A stretch of DNA of 64,000 bases, from NCBI GenBank assembly GCA_030425485.1, contig JAUIAM010000005.1:1-64000 (forward strand), read 5' to 3'. A model generated the notes under the pieces. The model was not told where the DNA came from. It ran no database searches and saw only the letters and a list, made by a program, of their open reading frames with translations. The translations under genes and the position numbers were made by a program. Below, piece after piece: positions 1-19,048 of this stretch; the first letter of the stretch is position 1, and every line of letters starts with the position of its first letter. The stretch is from Verrucomicrobiia bacterium. GTDB taxonomy: Bacteria; Verrucomicrobiota; Verrucomicrobiia; Opitutales; Cerasicoccaceae.

Positions 1-173
1 TGAGGATTTTTTCGGCTTTCGAAGTGGTGTGAATCCAGATTCATGAACTGAGAAAACGGAAAAAGACGCGAAAAGACCCTTTTCTACCGACCTTGATGAA
101 TTTGAAAACACGGCCTAGAGCCGGCAGGTCTGCCGCACACGCGATTTATCCCGTGCGCGGCAGTGAATGCGGA
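1..173. other. Non-coding left edge with hairpin
   Basis: No gene is visible here. The stretch lies downstream of the minus-strand nifJ gene. An inverted repeat at 130-163 (CTGCCGC arms, about 12 bp with one mismatch, 10-base loop) could form the 3' end of the nifJ transcript. No clear T-run follows it on the minus strand, so it is not called a terminator. Confidence 0.4.
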
Positions 174-16897: not shown

Positions 16898-17914
16898 ATG
16901 AGTAACATCTACAAGGTAGCCGAGCTGGCCCAGGTCTCCCCCAAGACTGCCGCCCGCATTCTGGCCGGCGAATCCCCCCGCTCCAAGAACCGGGACAAGG
17001 TGTTCGCCGCGGCCAAGCAGCTCGGCTACATCCGCAATCAGCAGGCCGCGAACCTGCGCAGCGGCACGACCTCCGTCATCGGCATCATCGTGCCAGACAT
17101 CCAAAACCCGTTTTACAGCAAAGTTATTCAGTCCATGCACGATGCCTGCCTGGAGCGTGGCTTTTCCATCCTCCCAACGGCCAGCTTCGGCAACCCCGAT
17201 GGGGAAACGCGCGCGCTGCGGACGCTCCAGTCCTACCAGGTGGACGGCCTCTTGTTCAACGCCTCCGAACTCCCCGCCGGGAAGTCCAGCCTCGCTATCT
17301 GCCGCCAGCTCATCGCCCAGGGAAAGCCCCTCATTCTCTCCGGCGAGTTGGCCAGGATACTCCCCGGCGCAGACAGCCTGCATATCCACAACGACCGCGC
17401 CGTGGCCAAGGCCGTACGCTATCTCATATCACGGGGGCACAAGCGCATCGGCTTTATCGGCGGGCTGAAGGAGAGCCGCGCCATGCAGCAACGCCATCAG
17501 GGCTTTCAACTGGCCATGGATGAAGCCGGGCTCGACCCCGATCCGGCCGCAACGATATTTACCGGGGGCGACCTCTCCACCGTCGTGCCGATGGTGACCG
17601 ACCTCGCCATGGGCTTTTCCACCCGCAAGCGACCCACCGCTTTCATCTGCGGCAACGACATCATCGCCATTTCCGCCATGAAGGCCTTTCAACGCCTCTC
17701 CCTGAAGATTCCCGAAGATGTCGCCCTCATCGGTTTCGACGGCATTGATCTGGCCGAACTTGTCACCCCCTCGCTCACCACACTTCACCAGCCCCAGACG
17801 AAGATTGCGGACGACATCACCGATCTGCTTATTTCCCGCATCCGCAACCAGGCCCCCGCCAAAGGGCGATGCCTTAGCTACGAGCCCGAGCTCATCATCC
17901 GCGACTCGACCTGA
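16898..17914 (+). CDS. LacI-family transcriptional regulator
   Basis: 338 residues, the usual LacI length. The N-terminal HTH reads IYKVAELAQVSPKTAARILAG, with the hinge region QQAANLRSGTTSVIGIIV. The periplasmic-binding-protein-like sensor domain follows, with IPEDVALIGFDGIDLAELVTPSLTT, the typical late motif. It lies 121 bases after the ADP-ribosylglycohydrolase-fold gene on the same strand. It probably recognises the CG-centred palindrome at 15223-15248. The ligand is likely a sugar or derivative, not identifiable from sequence. Confidence 0.93.
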   Translation: MSNIYKVAELAQVSPKTAARILAGESPRSKNRDKVFAAAKQLGYIRNQQAANLRSGTTSVIGIIVPDIQNPFYSKVIQSMHDACLERGFSILPTASFGNPDGETRALRTLQSYQVDGLLFNASELPAGKSSLAICRQLIAQGKPLILSGELARILPGADSLHIHNDRAVAKAVRYLISRGHKRIGFIGGLKESRAMQQRHQGFQLAMDEAGLDPDPAATIFTGGDLSTVVPMVTDLAMGFSTRKRPTAFICGNDIIAISAMKAFQRLSLKIPEDVALIGFDGIDLAELVTPSLTTLHQPQTKIADDITDLLISRIRNQAPAKGRCLSYEPELIIRDST

Positions 17915-17966: not shown

Positions 17967-17999
17967 GAAAGCCGAGGTGTTGCCGCCAAAGCTCCTACA

Positions 18000-18183
18000 A
18001 GTGTTGTGTTAGCTTAGGCTGTGTTAGCCAAGTTCATTGAATAAGTTAATAGCCGCAAAATGGCACAAAAAACACAAAAGAGCATTAGGCATTGCCTAAG
18101 ATAAAGCTCATATCTGAAGCTCTTTGCGACTTTGCGTCTCTGCGGTGAAATAGTTTAGACAAGAACTAAGCTAACATGACACT
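18000..18183. mobile_element. 184-bp element with 18-bp imperfect terminal inverted repeats
   Basis: The left end AGTGTTGTGTTAGCTTAG (18000-18017) is matched at the right end (18166-18183) by its complement with 16 of 18 positions identical; the inner 11 bp are perfect. Inside are a dyad TTAGGCattGCCTAA, an A-rich track (GGCACAAAAAACACAAAAG) and a heptad-like run CTTTGCGACTTTGCGTCTC. No ORF is present. This structure is what a MITE or other small non-autonomous intergenic repeat looks like. The right end includes part of the araC stop codon. CTA occurs just outside the left end and again at the right border, a weak hint of target duplication. Confidence 0.65.
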
Positions 18184-19048
18184 AGGTTGCCCTGAGGCTC
18201 GCCCGGTAAGTGCTCGGCGTGCAGCCCGTGACCTCGCGAAAGCGCCGGTTGAAGTTCGACAGGCTGCTGTAGCCGGACTCAAAGGCGATCTCCGCCACAG
18301 TCTGCTCTCCCTCCTGAAGCCGGGCACAAACCCGGGCAATGCGCAACTCGTTCAAGTGCTGCTGAAAGGGCCGTCCGCTTTGCTGATGAAAAAAGCGGCT
18401 AAAAGATTGCGGCGACATATACAGCCAGCCCGCAACCTGAGCTTGCGTCAGTGACGCGTCACGAAAGCATCGCTCCAGGCGCTCCAGTACCACCCCGAGC
18501 CGGGGATCATTGCCCGGGCGCTTTCCACCGGAAACCGAGCTCGGGTTCAGGCGGTGACGCTTCCGCTCCAGCGCCAAATCGTACAGGAGCTGGAGCAGCA
18601 CTGCGAGTGGCATCTGCCCCGCCTGCCGTGTCTCGATCCGCTTCATCCGCTCAGCACAAGCCTGCGCCGTGGTTCCACTAAAAACATAGCCGCACTCAGC
18701 CCGGGTAATGAAGCGCAAGATGCGCTTGTTCTCGGGGAGCTCCCAGAAGGCATCACCCCACAGGCTATGGCGAAAGTGTAGCACCGTCCATCGCGCCTTT
18801 GCGCCCTGGGTAGGCGTCGAGGCGTAGGCGTGGGGCAGATTGGCCCCCAGCACGACGAGTTGACCGGCCCGGTAGGGATACAGGGCACGCCCGGCATGCA
18901 GGATGCCCTCCCCTTCGTCCATCCACACGAGCTCAAACTCCGGGTGAAAGTGCCAGTGTGAATCGATGCGCTCCTTTTCAAAAGTGACAACCTTTACCCC
19001 GTACTGACTCGACGGAAGGGCTTCGATTTTGGGCGGTATCGTTCGCAT
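18182..19048 (-). CDS. AraC-family regulator with cupin sensor domain
   Basis: 288 residues. The N-terminal half is a cupin-like sensor (DSHWHFHPEFELVWMDEGEG, then AGQLVVLGANLPHAY). The C-terminal 100 residues hold the two AraC HTH motifs (LTQAQVAGWLYMSPQSFSRFF and TVAEIAFESGYSSLSNFNRRF) and end with the usual TGCTPSTYRA. It is divergent from the PIG-L deacetylase gene across about 140 bases, the normal arrangement for a sugar-responsive activator and its target. Its stop codon lies in the right TIR of the 184-bp element, so insertion may have changed its last residues. Confidence 0.92.
   Translation of the reverse strand: MRTIPPKIEALPSSQYGVKVVTFEKERIDSHWHFHPEFELVWMDEGEGILHAGRALYPYRAGQLVVLGANLPHAYASTPTQGAKARWTVLHFRHSLWGDAFWELPENKRILRFITRAECGYVFSGTTAQACAERMKRIETRQAGQMPLAVLLQLLYDLALERKRHRLNPSSVSGGKRPGNDPRLGVVLERLERCFRDASLTQAQVAGWLYMSPQSFSRFFHQQSGRPFQQHLNELRIARVCARLQEGEQTVAEIAFESGYSSLSNFNRRFREVTGCTPSTYRASLRAT

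Follow-up and report, generated by a model that had tools for sequence, protein, structure and literature searches.

Insertion sequences of the IS630 family are moved by a cut-and-paste reaction into the dinucleotide TA, which is duplicated in the process (PMC2170065). A preference of IS630 for the TA within CTAG is reported in the title of a 1991 paper by Tenzen and Ohtsubo (cited in PMC2170065). MITEs of IS630 elements are already known, e.g. RUP of Streptococcus pneumoniae, which PMC2229807 presents as the MITE of IS630-Spn1. As described there, RUP is non-coding, is about 100-170 bp long, has terminal inverted repeats (TIRs) in common with an IS630 element and has TA as its target. RUP is unrelated in sequence to the element considered here, lacks its TTTGYG palindrome, and no placement at stop codons is reported for it in the text consulted. 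Correia/NEMIS and other TA-flanked bacterial MITEs, again as described in PMC2229807, are similar in having TA ends, TIRs, a length of 100-170 bp and a mostly intergenic position. MITEPsy1, an IS5-type MITE that inserts at CTAG or YTAA, shares CTAG as a target, but it duplicates 4 bp, carries the IS5-type TIR GGAAGGTCTGAAAAAGCC and is 100 bp long (PMC3189936).

The element located in the window (the whole stretch of 64,000 nucleotides that was analyzed) is a non-coding MITE derived from IS630. It occupies approximately 166 bp at 18017-18182, a length rounded in places to about 170 bp. It is very probably a non-autonomous MITE of the IS630/Tc1-mariner type that has IS630-derived ends, CTAG as its target, stop codons rebuilt upon insertion and an apparently captured interior. 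The TA duplication, the TIRs and a single DDE transposase are features of IS630 and ISY100, and the CTAG preference is that of IS630, as far as the cited title goes. Unlike these insertion sequences, the window element codes for nothing and its partner resides in a sister species. Correia/NEMIS and the other TA-flanked MITEs are unlike it in sequence, and its interior, in a further difference from them, matches a hairpin repeat that is spread across phyla.

A MITE family with common ends

The original prediction described a 184-bp TIR element at 18000-18183 with 18-nt arms at 18000-18017 and 18166-18183. The arms exist (they are 89% complementary and enclose a 148-nt spacer) and the element is real and present in many copies, but its left border was misplaced, as alignment of the copies puts the body at approximately 18017-18182 (Table 1). 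The start of the repeated unit, to the right of 18000, is marked by an inner inverted pair, TGTTAGCCAAGTTC and GAACTAAGCTAACA, at 18022-18035 and 18163-18176.

The genome that contains the window has about 43 clear matches to the element, several of which are 98% identical; the matched part corresponds to window positions 18023-18186. The TIR pattern of the family occurs at 60 sites in this genome, compared to none for the reversed control. The ends are common to the copies in an alignment of 44 rows, the consensus of which, written as CTAGTGTACCGTTAGC...GCTAACACGACACTAG, starts with CTAGTGTACCGTTAGCCAAGTTC and ends with GAACTAAGCTAACACGACACTAG. The copy matches, the consensus and the TIR counts relative to the control thus make the window copy a genuine member of the family, well outside what chance would give, with its left border at the inner repeat. 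As is typical of a MITE, the copies are numerous, have common ends and contain no transposase gene. A search of plasmids with the element gave no match.

The window copy has an aberrant left end, where the flanking tetranucleotide is TTAG and the TIR is a variant. The adjoining segment, 17998-18016, looks like the leftover of a second TIR that is otherwise absent. Other parts of the original prediction held: no ORF of 60 or more amino acids was found inside the element, the internal dyad and the TTTGCG run are both present, and the flanking genes are convergent, with the araC-type ORF ending at the right end of the element. The element is predicted to fold into a long hairpin.

Table 1. Features of the window element and its surroundings (window coordinates)
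Feature	Position	Strand	Basis
MITE body, ~166 bp; first base G, last base C	18017..18182	+	multi-copy alignment, family consensus, TIR pattern, ends of the autonomous IS
Left copy of the duplicated target TA, in TTAG context	18015..18016	.	copy alignment
Right copy of the duplicated target TA, inside CTAG 18182-18185 and also within the araC stop codon	18183..18184	.	copy alignment
Left TIR, variant end GGCTGTGTTAGCCAAGTTC (usual form GTGTACCGTTAGCCAAGTTC); resembles the right end of the IS	18017..18035	+	
Right TIR GAACTAAGCTAACATGACAC; the family's right end is similar to the IS left end, 36 bp	18163..18182	-	
Left inverted run GCCGCAAAATGGCACAAAAAACACAAAAGAGC, pairs with the right run	18052..18083	-	inverted repeats I4 and I9, folding, interior-only matches in relatives
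Small dyad TTAGGCATTGCCTAA in the loop	18085..18099	.	direct reading
Right run CTTTGCGACTTTGCGTCTCTGCGG, 8-nt units, cross-phylum motif	18122..18145	+	
TIR-like putative remnant CAAGTGTTGTGTTAGCTTA, contains the left arm of the original prediction	17998..18016	+	TIR match, <=3 mismatches at 17998
AraC-type regulator ORF; TAG stop made of the target TA and a G from the element end	18182..19048	-	
LacI-type regulator ORF on the opposite flank, convergent with the AraC-type ORF	16898..17914	+	

A separate MITE family with CTAGTGT ends and another interior (GGGGTGCAACCCAG...GCATTTCGGTAACAG) is found in the same genome (L049-L054, L057 and L059) and in the sister species G003 (L111 and L134). It is matched by the GTTACCGAA-type ends of an IS630 copy in G003 (L135).

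The autonomous partner and the probably captured interior

Nineteen relatives were scanned for pairs of the TIR. In G003, a sister species belonging to the same genus, such pairs occur four times with a spacing of exactly 1148 bp, and the four copies are identical in sequence. The 1148-bp element carries one ORF, which codes for a transposase of 365 amino acids (264.8 bits to the NCBIfam IS630 transposase NF033545 and 75.8 bits to Pfam DDE_3, PF13358). The right end of the MITE resembles the left end of this IS over 36 bp, the left end of the MITE resembles its right end over 38 bp, and both pairings fit better than the opposite ones. Homologs of the transposase are present in G002 (as a fragment), G005, G008 and G009, and these genomes contain further IS630 copies with related CTAGTGT ends. 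A partner transposase and a target rule can thus be named for this apparently undescribed MITE family.

In the genome that contains the window, a profile search gave no PF13358 match and a direct search with the 365-residue transposase found no homolog, so that present-day mobility in this genome is only putative. The copies there are perhaps orphans; alternatively, the IS may be absent from the draft assembly, as a multi-copy IS could drop out of its 62 contigs. The same 98-bp flank precedes an IS630 copy at one locus of G003 and a MITE copy at another (L103 and L109), a pattern that insertion of both next to copies of another repeat would produce.

Between the IS-derived ends, the interior of the MITE is a palindrome built of 8-nt units. 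The right arm is CTTTGCGACTTTGCGTCTCTGCGG and the left arm is its imperfect complement. Copies differ from each other by the gain or loss of whole units of about 8-9 nt. Of 241 genomes of the phylum, 19 contain the unit pattern YTYTGYGNYTYTGYGNYTYTGYGG; the control gave one match. At least 118 contigs, drawn from many phyla, contain a longer form of the run. The mention, in the original prediction, of TTTGCG-type runs in several phyla was therefore correct. Among the matches listed, an inverted partner lies upstream of 52 out of 86 such runs and downstream of 2. Both arms could be delimited in 42 cases, also among the matches listed; the median unit is about 94 bp, its ends TTTMACC and GGTKAAA are sharp, and no target duplication was seen at these 42 units. 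The window interior, with its inverted runs of 8-nt units and a right arm ending in GYGGTKAAA, has the makeup of this cross-phylum TTTGYG/CTCTGYG hairpin repeat. Hairpin repeats of the form TTTMACCRCAGAG...[varied loop]...CTCTGYGGTKAAA (L154-L233, many phyla) have a median length of about 94 bp and lack TIRs and target duplications. A literature search with the run strings returned nothing relevant.

The TIRs and the interior are separable. G016 has copies of the interior and no TIR site, whereas G008 has 32 TIR sites and one interior match. Judging from this double dissociation, the interior appears to be a captured palindrome of the cross-phylum type and not IS sequence. The co-occurrence of runs and TIRs in the genus would also suit an ancient single unit comprising the whole element, the interior-only copies elsewhere being decayed MITEs that have lost their ends. 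This is improbable, however, because in addition to the dissociation the runs in many phyla stop sharply at TTTMACC and GGTKAAA without TIRs or duplications, and the genome that contains the window has other MITE families in which ends of this kind enclose other interiors. A bolder form of the capture reading is offered tentatively: the cross-phylum hairpin might be a separate unit taken up as cargo between IS630 ends, with the terminal G and C serving as a stop-codon-repair device for harmless colonization of gene ends, a combination slightly more doubtful than not. If it is true, capture would make the hairpin mobile cargo and offer a first clue to the spread of such runs. One family of these enigmatic TTTGCG-type runs, which are seen across many phyla, is now connected to a mobile element that is open to testing.

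Two copies with a TTTGYG-type interior in G009 (L146-L148) share different flanking ends (TTAGGACTACTTCGTTAAA and TAACTAAGTAGAATTAGGCT), and the same interior is possibly carried there by another TIR family. Other periodic runs (ATTTCGCAGATTCACACAGATG... and ATCTGTGTGATCCGTGGTTAA), located in the flanks of L014 and L032, resemble a sister repeat type that has another unit.

Target site and gene ends

Most copies in the 44-row alignment have CTAG at both ends. Neighboring elements share a single CTAG, and an insertion between neighboring elements was observed. Empty sites were established for one copy, L033, which is not the copy of the window. The orthologous site is free of the element in the three sister species G001, G002 and G003. 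In G002 it reads CCTAGAAGCGGTA, with a single CTAG, compared to CGCTAGAAGCGATA for the joined flanks of the filled site (CTAG-element-CTAG in G000, the genome that contains the window); in G001 and G003 it reads CTCAGAAGCG and CTCAGAAACG, respectively. What had been anticipated for a mobile repeat was thus found: numerous copies that have their ends in common, a transposase whose element has matching TIRs (in G003), a short target duplication (the two-base TA within CTAG) and, at the L033 locus, empty sites in relatives.

Both ends of the MITE would have been inherited from an IS630 element, and the transposase would be supplied in trans, as the IS of the sister species suggests. By analogy with characterized IS630 elements, the MITE would be excised and inserted at the TA of a CTAG with duplication of the TA, i.e. 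C-TA-G would become C-TA-[G...C]-TA-G. The first base of the body is G and the last is C, and CTAG and any TAG stop codon contained in it are therefore rebuilt on both sides, as the positions show. The G of the element completes the stop codon, and the gene product is therefore unchanged. Insertions inside genes would probably be removed by selection, so that surviving copies would gather in intergenic CTAGs and at stop codons, chiefly where genes converge.

The positions of the copies were compared with open frames. Of 63 distinct ends in the genome that contains the window, 30 have a CTAG whose TAG terminates, in frame, an open frame of at least 100 codons; the other two frames give 2 cases each. 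At 27 of the 46 element sites (the araC stop at the window element is one such case), at least one end coincides exactly with the stop codon that closes a long open frame in its own reading frame, and both ends do so in 3, which lie between convergent genes. In G003, proportionally fewer ends lie at stops (5 of 33). The neighboring genes, according to crude ORF calls, are convergent for 21 copies, tandem for 11 and divergent for 2.

This genome has about 7- to 9-fold fewer CTAGs than expected, with 26 occurrences observed and 231 expected in the window, and 105 observed and 742 expected in 200 kb made up of ten other 20-kb stretches. When element-like sites are set aside, a crude ORF caller assigns 73 CTAGs of the 200 kb to coding regions, 19 to intergenic regions and 9 to stop codons. 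Stops therefore represent 9 of the 28 non-coding, non-element CTAGs versus 27 of the 46 element sites. The element touches a stop codon because its target is CTAG and it supplies the missing G. Most of the stop-codon pattern can be explained by CTAG specificity together with loss of intragenic insertions; a modest preference for stops beyond the availability of CTAG is possible. CTAG-specific insertion combined with stop restoration gives a transposon a simple route through a gene-dense genome with little damage. No earlier description of a stop-restoring terminal G, or of stop codons rebuilt by insertion of an IS630 element or MITE, was found in the open-access papers searched, which yielded only unrelated cases.

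Placement that favors convergent gene pairs and folding into a long hairpin would also be expected of a conserved structured RNA or regulatory hairpin at gene 3' ends, such as a terminator or an mRNA stabilizer, that is selected and not mobile. This is very unlikely, because the element has no match among Rfam covariance models up to E = 10, shows no compensatory changes and is absent from the orthologous site in three sister species. The consensus fold calculated with RNAalifold contains no base pair for one strand and 10 for the other, without compensatory pairs on either, and a selected RNA fold was rejected on these grounds. Furthermore, the element shares its ends with an IS, and its placement is accounted for by CTAG at stop codons.

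The IS630 origin of the ends is also to be weighed against mobilization by a resident IS5/IS427-type transposase, which is also very unlikely: the only two PF01609 matches of the genome are IS5-type, one of them has an end at CTAG, and an IS5-type element is adjoined by a second MITE family, the ends of which are CTAGGCCGTGT, but the IS5-type end CTAGGCCGCGTGGAC differs from CTAGTGT..GTTAGC whereas over 36-38 bp the MITE ends agree with those of the IS630 element, and the IS5-type transposases were rejected as the main partner for want of a TIR match.

The ends CTAGGCCGTGTYTTC...GAAKACACGGCCTAG define a second MITE-like family, members of which frequently abut the first. This second family is found at window positions 1-118, at L069:1378-1468 and in the flanks of L010, L025 and L029. 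One of its copies touches an IS5-type element that has the end CTAGGCCGCGTGGAC.
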